Under the pieces are notes generated by a model. The model did not search any database and was not told where the DNA came from. It saw only the letters and a list, made by a program, of their open reading frames with translations. From positions 62,001 through 126,000 of the forward strand of contig JANXVZ010000021.1 in the NCBI GenBank assembly GCA_025351405.1: a DNA stretch of 64,000 bases, read 5' to 3'. Below, piece after piece: positions 34,764-40,880 of the stretch; position 1 is the first letter of the stretch; each line of letters starts with the position of its first letter. The stretch is from Sphingomonadales bacterium. Lineage in GTDB: Bacteria; Pseudomonadota; Alphaproteobacteria; Sphingomonadales; Sphingomonadaceae. A program made the translations under genes and the position numbers.

Positions 34764-35531
34764 TCAATCCGGCGGCAGCCTTGGATCGGGTTCGCTGGCA
34801 TAGGGCGGCGGTGGGATGGCGGCCGCGGCGGCGCGCAACGCGTTCGACCAGCGATCGGTCAATTCGCGGTAATAATCCTCCTCCTCATCGACACGGTGGA
34901 TCATCTCGATCCGCGACACGCCGGAGCGCACCGAAATGATGTCGATGGGCAGGCCGACGGCGAGGTTCGATCGCATCGTCGAGTTGAACGAAATCAACGC
35001 CACCTTGATTGCTTCGGCAAGCGGTGTTTCGTAGTTGAGCATGCGGTCGAGAACGGGCTTGCCGTATTTGTGCTCGCCGATCTGCAGGAACGGCGTGTCG
35101 GACTGGCACTCGATGAAATTGCCCGCCCCGTAAATCTGGAACAAGCGTGGTTTGCGGCCGTCGATCGAGCCGCCGAACAGCAATGTCGCGGTGGTGCCGA
35201 CTTTTTCATCCTGCACGACCTTGTCGACTGCAGCCTTGGCGTCGTGCAGTGCCTGGCCGACAATCTGTGCCGCGCGAAACACCGATGGCGCCGTATCCAG
35301 CGTTTCGGCTTCGTCGCAGCCCGGCATCATCACGCCTTCGGCAAGCTGGCTGATCGCGGTCTGGGTCACCGACAGGCTGCCCGCCGACGCCACCACCATG
35401 ACCCTGCCGGGCCGTGTCTCGATGACCCGCAGCTTTCGGTAGGTCGAAATATTGTCCACGCCGGCGTTGGTGCGGGTGTCCGCCATCATCACCAGCCCTT
35501 CGCGGACAAGCGCTCCTACGCAATAGGTCAT
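34764..35531 (-). CDS. anbu: Anbu: bacterial proteasome-like peptidase
   Basis: Bacterial homologue of proteasome beta subunits (COG3484), 255 residues. It begins MTYCVGALVREG: removal of Met would expose Thr1, with Asp17 (MMADTR) and Lys32 (TYRKL) at the positions of the catalytic triad of the Ntn-hydrolase fold. DEKVGTTATLLFGG is the second typical strand. The ATG at 35531 is required for the N-terminal Thr; the same frame is open a further 530 bases inside the next gene. Known Anbu proteins assemble into helical or open-ring particles; peptidase activity has been hard to show. Last gene of a four-gene operon. Confidence 0.93.
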   Translation of the reverse strand: MTYCVGALVREGLVMMADTRTNAGVDNISTYRKLRVIETRPGRVMVVASAGSLSVTQTAISQLAEGVMMPGCDEAETLDTAPSVFRAAQIVGQALHDAKAAVDKVVQDEKVGTTATLLFGGSIDGRKPRLFQIYGAGNFIECQSDTPFLQIGEHKYGKPVLDRMLNYETPLAEAIKVALISFNSTMRSNLAVGLPIDIISVRSGVSRIEMIHRVDEEEDYYRELTDRWSNALRAAAAAIPPPPYASEPDPRLPPD

Positions 35532-35581
35532 CGAAACAGCCTCCCCGATGGACGGACTCTTCTGGTCTGGTCCGATTGTTG

Positions 35582-36448
35582 TCACGCCTCGATCTGACCC
35601 TGTGCCTGCGACAGTGTCTGCCCCTGCTGGGACTGGACTTGCCCGATTTGCAGGTCGCGGGCCGTCACCTCGACGGTCATCGATTCGCGCCCGCCGCCGC
35701 GCCTGGCGCCTCGCACGGGCGCGGCATCGAGATAATCGAGCCCGACAGCGACCCGCAGATAGGCGTCGGTGGTCGACATGCCGTTGGTCGGGTCGAAACC
35801 GACCCAGCCGAGGTCCGGTATGTAGGATTCGGTCCAGGCGTGCCCGGCCGGCTGGGTGACAAGGCCGTCTGATCGCACCAGGTGGCCCGAGACATAGCGT
35901 GACGGGATGCCGAGGTGCCGGGCCGCGGCGACGAAGATGTGACTGTAATCCTGGCAAACGCCGGCGCCGAGGCCGAAGGCATGGACGGCGTCGGTGTAGC
36001 TGTGGGTGACATCGGCATCGAAGCTCATATGTTCGTAAAGGGCGTTGAGCAGGCCGTGGCACGCGGTCAACGGATCATCGTCACCATGCCTGCGGGCAAA
36101 GGCGCTTATGGCCTCGTCGGCGGTGGTCAACGGTGTCGTGCGCAGGAAGACCATCTCTGGCAGGGGTTCCGGGGTGCCGCGCAGCACGCCGCCGGTCTCG
36201 CTGGTGTCGACCTCGCCGGAAACGTGCAGCGACAGCCGGTTGAGGGCATGGTCGGCGTAGAAAATGTGGACGATGTTGCCGAAGGCGTCGTGTCCGCGCC
36301 GCAAATGGCCGTCGGCATCGATATCGAGCCGCCAATGGACGATATGCTGGTCGTCGTGGCCGGCCGGCTCGACGCGCAGCAATTGCACGACCTCGCTTGC
36401 CGGCAGCGAATAGTCATATGTCGTGGTGTAATCGACCCGGATCCGCAT
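35582..36448 (-). CDS. Transglutaminase-like cysteine peptidase of the Anbu operon
   Basis: 288 residues with an N-terminal beta domain (bacterial transglutaminase-like N, about 1-90) and a papain-fold core. The complete triad is visible: Cys165 in GAGVCQDYSH, His203 in AGHAWTE and Asp219 in GFDPTNG. In this operon context such proteins are predicted peptidases or amidases rather than cross-linking enzymes. A Gln/Ser-rich tail ends the protein. No signal peptide, so it is cytosolic. It starts 8 bases after the alpha-E gene and precedes anbu by 50 bases. Confidence 0.92.
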   Translation of the reverse strand: MRIRVDYTTTYDYSLPASEVVQLLRVEPAGHDDQHIVHWRLDIDADGHLRRGHDAFGNIVHIFYADHALNRLSLHVSGEVDTSETGGVLRGTPEPLPEMVFLRTTPLTTADEAISAFARRHGDDDPLTACHGLLNALYEHMSFDADVTHSYTDAVHAFGLGAGVCQDYSHIFVAAARHLGIPSRYVSGHLVRSDGLVTQPAGHAWTESYIPDLGWVGFDPTNGMSTTDAYLRVAVGLDYLDAAPVRGARRGGGRESMTVEVTARDLQIGQVQSQQGQTLSQAQGQIEA

Positions 36449-36456
36449 TGCCGTTC

Positions 36457-37398
36457 CTAGAACAAATACTGGTCGGCGACGGCTTCACCGAGGCGATTGT
36501 TATCGACGATGAAGCGCGTGAGAAATTCGTGCAGTCCGCCGGCAAAGATCGCATCGATGTTGGATTGGCTGAGCCGGGCATGGCCGGCCGCGGCGAGGCG
36601 GTGAGCCGGGCCGCGCTTGCCCGTCACGCTGGCAAGCTGGTCGAGCTGGCGCAATATCTCGTCGTAGCAACTGGCGAGGCTGCGCGGGATCTGGCGGTTG
36701 AGGATCAACAGGTCCGCGACCAGCCATGGTTTGACCGAATCGCGATACACCCAGCGATAGGCGGTCATCGCCGACACGGTTCGCAGGATGGTCGTCCACT
36801 GGAAATAATCGAGGCTGCCTCCAACGGTATCGCCGCGTGGCAACAACAGGTGATATTTGACGTCGAGCAGTCGCGCCGAATTGTCGGCCCGTTCAATGGC
36901 GCTGCCGAGGCTGGTGAACCAGAAGGCATCGCCGCGCAGCATGGTGCGGTGCGCAGCCCCTTCGAACGCGGAGACGGCGTGCTTGACCAGGTCGAGTAGC
37001 GGGCCGAGTGCTTCGCGGCTTTCAAGGTGGGTGCCGTAGCGCGAGACTTCGAGCCAGGCGGTGTTGATCGCCTCCCAGCCTTCCTCGGTCAACGCGGTGC
37101 GCACGGCCCGCGCATTCGATCGCGCCGCCTCGAGGCATGATCGTATCGAGCTGGGATTTGACGGATCGAGGGTGAGGAAATCGCTGATTTCGGCTTCATC
37201 AAGGGTCAGCCCGCGTTCCTTGTGGGCACGGGTCATCCAGGTTGCGGCAAGCGCAGATTCCCAGGCGTTGCCGGCGCCGCCATAGGATGTCGGCAGCGCA
37301 GCAAGCCGCTGGGTCGCTTCGATCAACCGCGCGGTGAAGTCGGCACGCTCAAGGTAGCGGCCCATCCAGTAAAGGTTGCTGGCGGAGCGGGAGAGCAT
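36457..37398 (-). CDS. Alpha-E domain protein (DUF403) of the Anbu operon
   Basis: 313-residue all-helical protein (COG2307, alpha-E). It begins MLSRSASNLYWMGRYLERADFTARLIEA, read in two parts, the family hallmark, and repeats a similar LGSAIERADNSARLLDVKY motif mid-protein. The function is unknown; it always travels with the permuted ATP-grasp protein and is thought to form a complex with it in making or attaching a peptide. Second gene of the operon, 46 bases after the ATP-grasp gene. Confidence 0.92.
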   Translation of the reverse strand: MLSRSASNLYWMGRYLERADFTARLIEATQRLAALPTSYGGAGNAWESALAATWMTRAHKERGLTLDEAEISDFLTLDPSNPSSIRSCLEAARSNARAVRTALTEEGWEAINTAWLEVSRYGTHLESREALGPLLDLVKHAVSAFEGAAHRTMLRGDAFWFTSLGSAIERADNSARLLDVKYHLLLPRGDTVGGSLDYFQWTTILRTVSAMTAYRWVYRDSVKPWLVADLLILNRQIPRSLASCYDEILRQLDQLASVTGKRGPAHRLAAAGHARLSQSNIDAIFAGGLHEFLTRFIVDNNRLGEAVADQYLF

Positions 37399-37444
37399 TT
37401 AACCTTCTCCCGCGGCGAGCCAGGTGAAGCGATGGCGCCCCGCG

Positions 37445-38899
37445 TCAATCATCGACCACCCATGTATCTTTCGTCCCTCCGCCCTGGCTCGAATTGACCA
37501 CCAGCGACCCGGGCGTCATCGCCACGCGTGTCAGCCCGCCGGGAACGATATGCACGCCGTTGGTCCCCGTCAGCACGAACGGCCGCAAATCGACATGGCG
37601 CGCCGCGATGCCGGCATCGGTCGCGGTCGGGCAGGTGCTGAGCGCCAGTGTCGGCTGGGCGATGAATTTGTCGGGCTGGGCCTTCAGCTTGGCGGCAAAG
37701 GCGGCAAGTGTCGCGGCCGGGGCATGGGGGCCGATCAGCATCCCGTAGCCGCCGGAGCCGTCGACCTCCTTGACCACCAACTCGGCAAGGTGATCGAGCA
37801 CATAGCCCAGCGCTTCGGGCTCACGACAGCGCCAGGTCGGCACATTGTTGAGCAGGGGTTCCTCGCCGGTGTAAAAACGGATGATCTCGGGCATGTACGA
37901 ATAAATGGCCTTGTCGTCGGCGACACCGGTGCCGACGGCATTCGCCAGGGTAACGTTGCCCGCACCATAGGCTGCCATCAGCCCGGGCACCCCAAGCATC
38001 GAGGCGGGGTTGAAAACCAACGGGTCGATGAAGGCGTCGTCGAGACGGCGATAGATGACATCGACCCGTTCCGGCCCTTCGGTGGTGCGCATGTAGACGA
38101 TATCGTCGCGGACAAAGAGGTCGGAGCCTTCGACAAGTTCGATACCGAGCTTGTCGGCAAGGAAACTGTGTTCGTAAAAGGCGCTGTTGTGGCTCCCCGG
38201 TGTCAGCAGCACGCACACCGGCGCATTGCCGCCTCGCGCCTTGCGCGGAGAGACCGACGCAAGCGTTTCAAGCAGGGCTTCGGGGTATGTTTCCACCGGA
38301 GCCACTTTCAACGAGTTGAACAGTTCCGGCACCAGCTTGAGCATGACCTCGCGATTTTCGAGCATGTACGAGACCCCCGATGGCGTGCGGGCATTGTCCT
38401 CGAGCACATAAAATTCGTCGGGACCGGTGCGGACAAGATCGATGCCGGCAATATGGGTCCAGATGCCGCCGGGGGGCTTCCTGCCGGCCATGTGCAGGCA
38501 ATAGCCCGGATTGTGCAGCACCAGTTCTTCGGGCAAAATCCCAGCACGCAGAATATCGCGCGGCCCGTAAACATCGGCGAGAAACGCATTAAGGGCGGCG
38601 ACCCGCTGCTTCAGCCCCTGCTCGAGGATGTTCCATTCGCTCCGCGCCAAAATCCGCGGCACGATATCGAAAGGGATCAGGCGCTCGGTCGCATCGGGAT
38701 CGCCATAGACGGCAAAGGTAATGCCGATGCGGCGAAAGAAAAGCTCGGCCTGCCGGCGCCTTGCCGCCATGACCGCCGGGGGCGACTGGTCGATCCACGC
38801 TTGAATGGAGCGATAGGCGAGGCTGACATCGACATCGCTGGCGCGGCCATAGGCACTGCCTATACCGTACATTTCGTCAAAGGCCGTCGCTGCTGGCAT
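37445..38899 (-). CDS. Circularly permuted ATP-grasp protein (DUF404/DUF407) of the Anbu operon
   Basis: 484-residue protein of COG2308, a circularly permuted ATP-grasp fold expected to form amide (peptide) bonds with ATP. Features: FDIVPRILARSEWNILEQGLKQRV read in parts near residue 75, the YVLEDNARTPSGVSYMLENR segment near 165 carrying the Glu-Asp-Asn metal-binding residues, and the C-terminal DGSGGYGMLIGPHA ATP-binding loop. First gene of the operon; AGGAGCGG precedes the ATG at 38899. The substrate is unknown. Confidence 0.92.
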   Translation of the reverse strand: MPAATAFDEMYGIGSAYGRASDVDVSLAYRSIQAWIDQSPPAVMAARRRQAELFFRRIGITFAVYGDPDATERLIPFDIVPRILARSEWNILEQGLKQRVAALNAFLADVYGPRDILRAGILPEELVLHNPGYCLHMAGRKPPGGIWTHIAGIDLVRTGPDEFYVLEDNARTPSGVSYMLENREVMLKLVPELFNSLKVAPVETYPEALLETLASVSPRKARGGNAPVCVLLTPGSHNSAFYEHSFLADKLGIELVEGSDLFVRDDIVYMRTTEGPERVDVIYRRLDDAFIDPLVFNPASMLGVPGLMAAYGAGNVTLANAVGTGVADDKAIYSYMPEIIRFYTGEEPLLNNVPTWRCREPEALGYVLDHLAELVVKEVDGSGGYGMLIGPHAPAATLAAFAAKLKAQPDKFIAQPTLALSTCPTATDAGIAARHVDLRPFVLTGTNGVHIVPGGLTRVAMTPGSLVVNSSQGGGTKDTWVVDD

Positions 38900-38923: not shown

Positions 38924-38953
38924 ATACTGTGCGGTGCAGCGTAAACCGGCAAG
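38924..38953 (-). promoter_or_regulatory. Putative promoter of the Anbu operon
   Basis: On the minus strand: CTTGCC (38953-38948), an 18-base spacer and CAGTAT (38929-38924), with the ATG 25 bases further on. A modest match. Confidence 0.35.
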
Positions 38954-39022: not shown

Positions 39023-40348
39023 CTATTGCGGGCGTTCGTTCTCATGCGGCCCGGTCGTCCGCGCTGTCGGCTGTTGGCGTTCCTGCCGTTCCTGGCGCTG
39101 TTGTTGGGGCTGGGCCTGGGGTTGTGGCCGCTGCTGTGGTGCCGGTGCGAAGTTGCGCATCGGTTGCGGCTGGCCCTGGAACTGCGGCGCGGGACGCGAC
39201 GACTGCATCGTTCCTGCAGCGATCGCGCCGCTGACGGTATTGCCGCCAGCCGGCCGGCCACCGGGGTAGCCTCCACCCTGATAGCCGCCGCCCGGCGGGC
39301 GGTAACCCTGGCCCGGCACGCCGGCGGGTTCGCCGACAATCACCGGGCGCGTTGCCGATGGTTGGCCTGCGTTCCACGCCGGTCGCTGCCCTGCGGCCGG
39401 CCGGCCATTGTAACCCGGACGTCCGCTCTCAGGGCGATAGCCGCCGTTCCAGCCAGGATTACCCTGGGTCGGCCGTCCGTTCTGGCTGTCGTTGCCATGA
39501 CCGTTCCAGCCAGGGCGAGCCTGGCCGGCAAGCCCGCCGCCAATGACACCGCTGACTCCGCCGTTCTGGCCGGGTCTGCCGTCGCCATTCCAGCCGCCCG
39601 GCCTGCCGCCACCCGGCCTGCCGTCATTGGGTCTGCCATCATGGAGGCGACCGTCCTGCCATCCGCCGGGGCGGCCACCGCCATGGTTGTTGCTGCCATT
39701 GCCGTTGTGCCAGTCCCCGCGGTTTTCCCAGCGGCTGCGCGCCCAGAAATCACGCCCGCGGTCCCAGCCGACAATCCGGCCGCCAAAGCGTGGCTGATAG
39801 AGATAGCTTCGCGGAACCCAGACCCAGCTTGGCGCATACCAACTGTCGTAGTTGTCATATCCGCCGCCAAAACCAATTCCGACCGAAACGTTCAGGCCCG
39901 GCGGAATCGGCGCCCAGCCGGCGTATTCGTCCGAATCGCGGAATGCCACCCATGAGGGCGCCCATTGCGTGCCGGGCACCCACACCCAGCCGACCGCGGG
40001 TTCATAACCCCAGCGGCCATAATGGTCGGTAATCTCGCCAAAGGGTTCGTCGCTGATCCAGTACTGGTTTTCGCCCCACCGGCCGTTGGTGTAGGGACGC
40101 CAGTCGGGGGCGACATTGGGCTGGAAGGCATTGCCCCAGCGGCTGTTGACCCAGCGACCATAAGGCGCCAGCTGTTCGTAAAATACATCAACCGAAACGA
40201 CGTCCTGCCCCTGCGGATAGGCGCCATCGCTGTAGCCGCCGGGCGGCGGCGCGCCATAGCCATTGTCGTAACCCTGGGCATAGCCATCATAAGCACAGCC
40301 TGCGGTCATCAGCAGCGCGGCGACGGGCAGTAAACGAAACGGTGTCAT
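39023..40348 (-). CDS. DUF6600-domain lipoprotein with Gly/Pro-rich tail
   Basis: 441 residues in three parts. A lipoprotein-type signal (MTPFRLLPVAALLMTAGC, Cys18; the -3 residue is Thr, slightly atypical). An aromatic-rich domain (about 45-165) with repeated GRW/GRWGYEP and GWVWVPGTQWAPSWVAFR motifs, recognisable as DUF6600. A long low-complexity tail rich in Gly, Pro, Asn, Arg and Gln with DGRP and GRPG repeats. Probably outer-membrane or periplasmic; function unknown. The ATG at 40348 has GGAGG 9 bases before it; the longer frame upstream lacks a site and overlaps the divergent gene's leader. Confidence 0.82.
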   Translation of the reverse strand: MTPFRLLPVAALLMTAGCAYDGYAQGYDNGYGAPPPGGYSDGAYPQGQDVVSVDVFYEQLAPYGRWVNSRWGNAFQPNVAPDWRPYTNGRWGENQYWISDEPFGEITDHYGRWGYEPAVGWVWVPGTQWAPSWVAFRDSDEYAGWAPIPPGLNVSVGIGFGGGYDNYDSWYAPSWVWVPRSYLYQPRFGGRIVGWDRGRDFWARSRWENRGDWHNGNGSNNHGGGRPGGWQDGRLHDGRPNDGRPGGGRPGGWNGDGRPGQNGGVSGVIGGGLAGQARPGWNGHGNDSQNGRPTQGNPGWNGGYRPESGRPGYNGRPAAGQRPAWNAGQPSATRPVIVGEPAGVPGQGYRPPGGGYQGGGYPGGRPAGGNTVSGAIAAGTMQSSRPAPQFQGQPQPMRNFAPAPQQRPQPQAQPQQQRQERQERQQPTARTTGPHENERPQ

Positions 40349-40484
40349 CTGTGTGAACCTCCAATTGCAACAAGGTTTACGCCGGCCCGGCTTTCGGCGC
40401 GATGAATAGCTTGGCCCGGCTTGATATTGCATCGGCGGCGCCTTCCGCTCACACATGGAGGCTGGAAACGGGGGAAGAACGATC

Positions 40485-40880
40485 ATGACCACCGAATTGC
40501 ACCTGCTTGCTGCGGCGCTCATCCTGGCGGTCGTCCAGATATTGTTGTTCGATGTGGCCCGTACCGGCCAATACGGCATCAAGTGGAACACCGGCGCGCG
40601 TGACGAGGCGATGCCGCCGCTCTCTGCAGGTGCGGAGCGACTGCAGCGCGCCCAGAACAATCTTTTCGAAACCCTGCCATTGTTCATTGCAGCCGTGCTT
40701 GGCCTGCACGCCGCCGGGGTGTCGAACCCGACGACGATCCTGGGCGCGCAGCTATGGTTCTGGGGCCGCGTCGCCTATGTGCCGCTCTATGCCTTTGGCG
40801 TGAAGATGCTGCGCTCGATTGTCTGGCTTATCAGCTTTGCCGGATTGGTGATGTTGATCGCGGCATTCTTCGGGGCGTGA
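40485..40880 (+). CDS. MAPEG-family membrane protein
   Basis: 131-residue membrane protein with four helices and the MAPEG-type ERLQRAQNNLFETLPLFIA segment between helices 1 and 2, carrying the conserved Asn and Glu. It is longer and quite different in sequence from the other MAPEG protein at 21605, so they are not recent duplicates. A glutathione-linked role is possible but unproven. The ATG at 40485 is preferred to a site 10 codons upstream. Divergent from the DUF6600 gene (136-base gap with no obvious promoter); a small ATGGCG/CGCCAT hairpin at 40886-40900 lies in the convergent gap after it. Confidence 0.83.
   Translation: MTTELHLLAAALILAVVQILLFDVARTGQYGIKWNTGARDEAMPPLSAGAERLQRAQNNLFETLPLFIAAVLGLHAAGVSNPTTILGAQLWFWGRVAYVPLYAFGVKMLRSIVWLISFAGLVMLIAAFFGA

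Follow-up and report, generated by a model that had tools for sequence, protein, structure and literature searches.

The closest described relative of the locus studied here is the Anbu operon of PMC5666114 and PMC6376114 (citing Valas and Bourne 2008 and Iyer et al. 2009), in which genes for an ATP-grasp protein, an alpha-E protein, a transglutaminase-like protein (TG) and the proteasome-like hydrolase Anbu follow one another. The same four families in the same order lie at positions 34,764 to 38,899 of a 64,000-nucleotide stretch of Sphingomonadales bacterium DNA (assembly GCA_025351405.1, contig JANXVZ010000021.1, positions 62,001 to 126,000), which is referred to below as the window. According to the available parts of both papers, the published operon shares the Anbu catalytic residues with the window, likewise has no AAA+ partner and shows no difference in gene content. 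Since this kind of Anbu operon is already in print, the locus is a new member of it and not a new system.

The original prediction had placed four genes on one strand, with gaps of 46, 8 and 50 bases from ATP-grasp to Anbu; gene calls and Pfam matches bore out genes, coordinates, strand and gaps (Table 1). The residues that it had named as intact, T1, D17 and K32 of mature Anbu and C165, H203 and D219 of TG, are all in place. Its proposal of enzymes making a bond and enzymes breaking it is the guess already published, as quoted in the available text of PMC5666114 and PMC6376114.

Two further operons are comparable. PP_2685-PP_2688 of P. putida KT2440 are named as one operon, with products given as proteasome beta-like, TG and ATP-grasp type 2 in the available parts of PMC7801951, PMC8050072 and PMC3325844; we infer that PP_2687, called hypothetical, is alpha-E. 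The Rlo operon of P. aeruginosa (PMC12239564) also unites a protease, a TG-fold protein and an ATP-grasp protein, and there the loss of the protease is rescued by mutations in the genes for the ATP-grasp protein and the inactive TG. It differs in having a retropepsin as its protease, an inactive, membrane-bound TG and a RimK-like ATP-grasp protein; neither alpha-E nor Anbu appears in the available part of the paper.

Glutathionylspermidine and glutathione synthetases have a fold in common with the operon ligase, as indicated by a fused paralogue described below, and the matching structure 3n6x is named a putative glutathionylspermidine synthase. However, the identity to characterised enzymes of this group is about 10–14%, and the operon ligase would work with alpha-E. 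The Pup-proteasome system combines a conserved C-terminal glutamine (Gln) region, an ATP-dependent ligase and a proteasome-type hydrolase, and these kinds of components are also present in the Anbu operon. In the window, however, the Gln tail belongs to a TG enzyme of 288 amino acids (aa) and not to a small tag, and it ends in QIEA; the ligase is CP_ATPgrasp_2 and not PafA, and the operon holds no AAA+ protein.

The ATP-grasp/alpha-E core and the accessory Anbu

Searches of 60 relatives gave 36 with Anbu and 36 with alpha-E, the window genome being included in each count. Twenty-six fetched loci carry all four genes (25 from the same family and one from the same order), and gene order and strand are identical in every one, so that the arrangement is not due to chance; other fetched loci of relatives are broken by contig ends. 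In a 160-genome sample of Proteobacteria, alpha-E is present in 90 genomes, Anbu in 58 and both in 57, the lone genome with Anbu but without alpha-E being G153. Because 57 of the 58 Anbu genomes have alpha-E and 33 of the 90 alpha-E genomes lack Anbu, alpha-E and its ATP-grasp partner are the core, and Anbu is an accessory, dependent part. The original prediction had named the operon after Anbu; the gene is indeed present, but it is the optional member.

Betaproteobacteria show a looser organisation. The plain four-gene order occurs at 28 of 80 named Anbu loci, and in 45 Anbu is the sole member of the four within the fetched DNA (30 of these 45 have at least 5 kb of upstream and at least 3 kb of downstream DNA). 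Genomes with a lone Anbu nevertheless proved positive for alpha-E in 18 of the 19 cases searched. At two of the 19 standalone alpha-E loci fetched from these genomes, the gene directly after alpha-E codes for an operon-like TG (scores 233 and 221; 1.5 kb examined), which in both cases lacks Gln in its last two residues; at two more, a TG of another subfamily takes this place.

Some individual arrangements were also recorded. The family member G034 (loci L065 and L081) carries the trio of ATP-grasp, alpha-E and TG on one contig and Anbu alone on another, and its TG retains the Gln tail. In G001, of the same genus, a C-terminal fragment of Anbu was found (L074, 4761-5171, query residues 125-252) and no alpha-E. 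Loci L082, L087 and L113 (G078, G141 and G075) have ATP-grasp and alpha-E with no TG within the fetched 12 kb, and Anbu lies far away in the genome. In a second arrangement (L127, L132, L139, L142 and L143), the neighbours of Anbu are a gene in which ATP-grasp and alpha-E are fused and other TG-like genes; the latter lack the Gln end wherever the end is readable.

The ATP-grasp protein matches 3n6x along most of its length, and an alignment of 26 sequences contains 97 invariant columns, including K377, R439 and N469. A fused ATP-grasp/alpha-E paralogue of 841 aa from the same genus was modelled with a predicted local distance difference test (pLDDT) score of 85 and a predicted template modelling (pTM) score of 0.81. 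This model matches 3n6x, then glutathione synthetases (best E = 1e-10), and also E. coli glutathionylspermidine synthetase and trypanothione synthetase; the predicted fold class is that of glutathione synthetase and glutathionylspermidine synthetase. Enzymes of the glutathione, glutathionylspermidine and trypanothione synthetase kind activate a carboxylate as acyl phosphate and then couple it to an amine. As natural ATP-grasp/alpha-E fusions exist, the two proteins are likely to act as one machine.

The AlphaFold2 model of alpha-E is helical throughout, with a mean pLDDT of 92. The two halves of the protein align with each other in hhalign over 148 columns (probability 99.3, E = 5e-20), and both contain the ER motif. 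An odd/even split of the alignment rows again gave 99.3, whereas twelve controls all reached a probability of at most 1.3; these were reversed, five column-shuffled, halves of the other three proteins and three cross-comparisons with ATP-grasp. Alpha-E is internally duplicated. A sequence search found no solved relative, and fold searches returned no trustworthy match to a solved protein, although absence from the match lists excludes none.

Anbu matches 5loy, 5nyj, 5nyf, 5nyw and 5lox, all with E ≤ 1e-52. It has no propeptide and carries the published residue set T1, D17, K32(33), as listed in the available part of PMC6376114. Its S1 pocket (T20, Y30, S48, L52, T55) differs by three conservative changes from that given for Anbu-1 in PMC5666114 (T20, F30, T48, L52, S55). 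The sequence is covered by a longer open frame of 432 aa, and the start was placed at 35531 because homologues begin with MTYC (MSYC in L155). The Anbu hidden Markov model excluded the fragment L074 and two sequences of the same order, L075 and L076 (29 and 26% identical to Anbu). The latter two are divergent proteasome-like proteins that start with MTYCLGI, have an altered RTN motif after D17 and are accompanied by no trio in the fetched DNA.

In the window genome (G000; 3.02 Mb in 48 contigs, 98% complete), alpha-E and a TG with the same N-terminal domain were found once each, along with this Anbu; one further proteasome-family gene lies on another contig.

Table 1. Features of the Anbu operon in the window, with window coordinates and the evidence for each.
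Feature	Coordinates	Strand	Evidence
ATP-grasp, circularly permuted type 2 (gene 1)	37445..38899	−	484 aa; PF14403 CP_ATPgrasp_2 E=1.2e-163; 3n6x E=4.7e-185 (residues 27-484)
Alpha-E (gene 2)	36457..37398	−	313 aa; PF04168 E=6.6e-92; AlphaFold2 model
Alpha-E repeat 1, residues 1-150	36949..37398	−	motif E17-R18 ... R24; hhalign against repeat 2
Alpha-E repeat 2, residues 151-313	36460..36948	−	motif E169-R170 ... R176; hhalign against repeat 1
TG (transglutaminase-like), C165-H203-D219 (gene 3)	35582..36448	−	288 aa; PF01841 Transglut_core E=3.4e-23; PF08379 Bact_transglu_N E=3.6e-18
TG Gln-rich C-terminal tail, residues 267-288	35585..35650	−	9 Gln in 22; tail composition, QxQ excess in homologues
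Anbu, proteasome-like Thr1 hydrolase (gene 4)	34764..35531	−	255 aa; Proteasome Pfam 3e-7; T1/D17/K32; structure matches
Sigma-70-like promoter candidate before ATP-grasp, TTGCC ... CAGTAT	38924..38952	−	spaced pattern, 17/21 family upstream regions

The glutamine-rich end of TG

The catalytic residues C165, H203 and D219 of TG are invariant in 16 sequences. In the window protein, Gln makes up 1.6% of the body and nine of the last 22 residues, where it stands at every second place. The statements made here on this tail cover Proteobacteria only. At fetched loci with adjacent alpha-E, TG and Anbu genes, Gln occurs within the last two residues of TG in 65 of 66 cases, against 1/63 for ATP-grasp, 5/65 for alpha-E and 3/66 for Anbu at the same loci (9/194 in total). 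The phylum sample supplied 37 of these 66 loci; the remaining 29 are from the relatives set, namely G042 and 28 members of the window's family. The tail test set comprised 79 standalone alpha-E loci from 78 genomes and G153, with 11 further alpha-E genomes left out.

When the window, 28 betaproteobacterial operons and two plasmid records are added, the Gln end is present at 82 of 97 adjacent loci. The 15 loci without it are L085, the window and 13 of the 28 betaproteobacterial four-gene operons; the other 15 of these operons have it. The window TG ends in QIEA, with its last Gln fourth from the end. For a wider comparison, operon-type TGs were defined by a score of 225, a cut set after the scores had been seen, which 105 of 128 TG rows pass. 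The 23 rows below it comprise 21 from other contexts and two (L166 and L234) from four-gene betaproteobacterial operons. Operon-type TGs without an adjacent Anbu retain the Gln end in seven of ten cases, including S. meliloti pSymB (L262).

Of the 105 operon-type tails, 73 have three or more Gln, and these contain 148 QxQ pairs, compared to 70.7 ± 6.2 expected from composition, an excess of about 12 standard deviations. Judging by the sequences, the alternation of Gln looks selected. Exact hexanucleotide repeats occur at 3 of 142 QxQx positions, and slippage is therefore unlikely as the origin of the tail; with both Gln codons in use and varied partners of Q, the tail was ruled out as a microsatellite.

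A strict tie between tail and Anbu was likewise unsupported, as 13 of the 28 betaproteobacterial operons lack the Gln end and seven of the ten TGs without Anbu have it. The tail follows the TG subfamily and not Anbu. On the tree, the state of the tail changes nine times and Anbu adjacency seven times. The pull-down in the available part of PMC6376114 used TG with a FLAG tag at its C-terminus; the tag could mask the tail, and the experiment hence did not probe a free tail.

Upstream regions and nitrogen control

A sigma-54-type site was defined as at least 10 of 12 consensus bases, with GG and GC fixed, at most 200 bp from the ATP-grasp start. The scan was first exploratory over all regions and was then repeated on the same loci against dinucleotide shuffles and random windows. 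Sites were found in 27 of 80 phylum-sample regions (shuffles 1.2%, random windows 0.8%) and in 15 of 32 betaproteobacterial regions (random windows 1.4%), where four score 12/12. None of the 44 regions before lone betaproteobacterial Anbu genes has such a site. Among 33 betaproteobacterial regions, 17 contain NtrC-like palindromes, versus 2.9% of random windows, and in all eight regions having both, the NtrC-like site lies upstream of the sigma-54 site.

The original prediction had left the purpose of the operon blank, and this blank is filled in part by P. putida, where nitrogen limitation induces the operon. PP_2686-2688, assigned to NtrB/NtrC, increased by 11 to 37 (read as fold) in one study (PMC7801951), and PP2685-2687 by 6.6 to 11.1 in another study of nitrogen limitation (PMC3325844); on nitrate versus ammonium, PP_2685 and PP_2688 are up by 4.4 and 4.0 log2 (PMC8050072). 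All of these values are from the available parts of the papers, as is the dependence of a TG-like cluster of B. cenocepacia H111 on sigma-54 and NtrC (PMC5491218). Because a large TG protein is part of the H111 cluster, this may be a paralogous cluster rather than an Anbu operon.

In contrast to the P. putida operon, no sigma-54-type site was found in the 28 regions of the window's family, and the best site in the window scores 7/12. Of the 29 regions in the relatives set, one has such a site, that of G042, which is of the same order and not of the family. The sigma-70-like pattern TTGCC ... CAGTAT is present in 17 of 21 family upstream regions, the window included, versus 0.7% of shuffles; it was drawn up after these regions had been viewed, and the count of 17/21 is descriptive. 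No rpoN was found in the 98% complete G000 with PF04552 and TIGR02395, while PF04552 was found in the other 59 of 60 searched genomes. The gene may truly have been lost or may fall into a gap of the draft, and nitrogen control is therefore not claimed for the window.

The 20 neighbouring proteins scanned (24.5-50.8 kb) are ordinary: aminotransferase, AcrB-type pump, SDR, MFS transporter, DUF6600, MAPEG, EVE, VIT1, P450, ribosomal protein S2, EF-Ts and others. No recognised nitrogen regulator was seen among these 20, and the window has no Rfam match at gathering scores. The DUF6600 protein (39023-40531) is encoded immediately before the operon, in the same orientation, and has a long tail, Gly/Asn/Arg/Pro-rich and then Gln/Pro-rich.

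A possible amide-ligase/hydrolase module

Starting from the gene content and order, residues, ATP-grasp fold class, alpha-E duplication, tail pattern and promoter enrichment established above, the operon can tentatively be read as an amide-ligase/hydrolase module that is under nitrogen control in many relatives and has a candidate contact or substrate in the TG tail. We place this reading slightly short of an even chance. ATP-grasp and the helical alpha-E form the core; the fold and the conserved residues suggest an ATP-dependent ligase which would activate a carboxylate, probably at a peptide or protein end, and join it to an amine. The Cys-His-Asp enzyme TG would hydrolyse or transfer amide bonds, and its Gln tail may be the place where a partner acts or docks. 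Anbu would be an accessory Thr hydrolase, clearing the product or trimming the tail. The module would be switched on at nitrogen shortage via sigma-54/NtrC in many Proteobacteria, as is in print for P. putida and as promoter footprints suggest for many more; in the window's family, the sigma-54 footprint is missing and a putative sigma-70-like promoter stands in its place. The logic of a ligase set against a protease has a genetic precedent in the Rlo operon (available part of PMC12239564).

Several points weigh against this reading. The Gln end is absent from the last two residues of the window TG itself and from the 13 betaproteobacterial operons, and it persists in TGs without an adjacent Anbu. 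An independent-pairs test of tail versus Anbu gave a median p of 1, with too few contrasts and no power. NtrC-like sites are rare in the phylum sample (5/81 versus 1.8% of random windows), the window genome has no detectable rpoN and PP_2685, the Anbu gene of P. putida, rose by only 1.1 to 4.8 in PMC7801951. In the available parts of the published work, purified Anbu cleaved no standard substrate in two studies (PMC6376114, PMC5666114), no stable complex among operon proteins is reported, and ATP-grasp released phosphate from ATP with no stimulation by Anbu, glutamine or glutamate.

The first proposal in print (PMC5666114, PMC6376114), that ATP-grasp and alpha-E put a peptide tag on proteins which Anbu then degrades or de-tags, is considered unlikely. 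It agrees with Anbu being a proteasome relative with T1, D17 and K32 intact, hardly ever found without alpha-E (57/58 genomes have both). However, 33 of the 90 alpha-E genomes in the sample have no Anbu, no unfoldase was detected among ten neighbouring proteins scanned, and Anbu is described in the available parts of the same two papers as an open ring without an AAA+ partner, which cleaved nothing tested.

It is also doubtful that the trio makes or breaks a small amide metabolite, glutathionylspermidine-like or a nitrogen store, with Anbu and the tail as side features. The fold class of the ligase, that of glutathione, glutathionylspermidine and trypanothione synthetases, fits such a product, and a study of marine metagenomes places these domains together with urea metabolism (available part of PMC3597751). 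This explanation, however, accounts neither for the conserved alternating-Gln tail nor for the rarity of Anbu without alpha-E.

A purely docking role is improbable: the TG tail would slide into the intersubunit grooves of Anbu and switch it on, as HslU tails do for HslV. TG directly precedes Anbu in the operon, alternating Gln makes a one-faced strand, and the groove of YbAnbu could accept an HslU-like tail according to the available part of PMC6376114; moreover, in lone-Anbu betaproteobacteria, the operon-like TGs after alpha-E (2 of 19 loci) are not Gln-ended. The tail is nevertheless retained at trio loci without adjacent Anbu, such as S. meliloti pSymB, and absent from nearly half of the betaproteobacterial four-gene operons. 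It is very improbable that TG is its own carrier, the tail Gln being deamidated by TG or Anbu, an amine, amino acid or target protein being coupled by ATP-grasp and alpha-E, and the product being cut off by Anbu.

No earlier mention of the TG Gln tail, the alpha-E duplication or the breadth of the sigma-54-type promoters was found in the literature searched; Iyer 2009 and Hervas 2009 may hold one. For alpha-E, a family for which no solved relative was detected, the duplication reveals a module of two repeats, and their symmetry can serve as a guide for mutagenesis. Prokaryotic schemes of protein end modification include pupylation and the LysW/RimK type. If TG were its own carrier, a further scheme of this kind would be added, serving nitrogen economy, with a proteasome-like enzyme as the releasing hydrolase. 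Structures of Anbu are published, and the literature searched names no substrate for it. The conserved Gln tail on the neighbour of Anbu provides a definite molecule for the substrate search, and the sigma-54/NtrC footprints provide a growth condition in which to seek that substrate.

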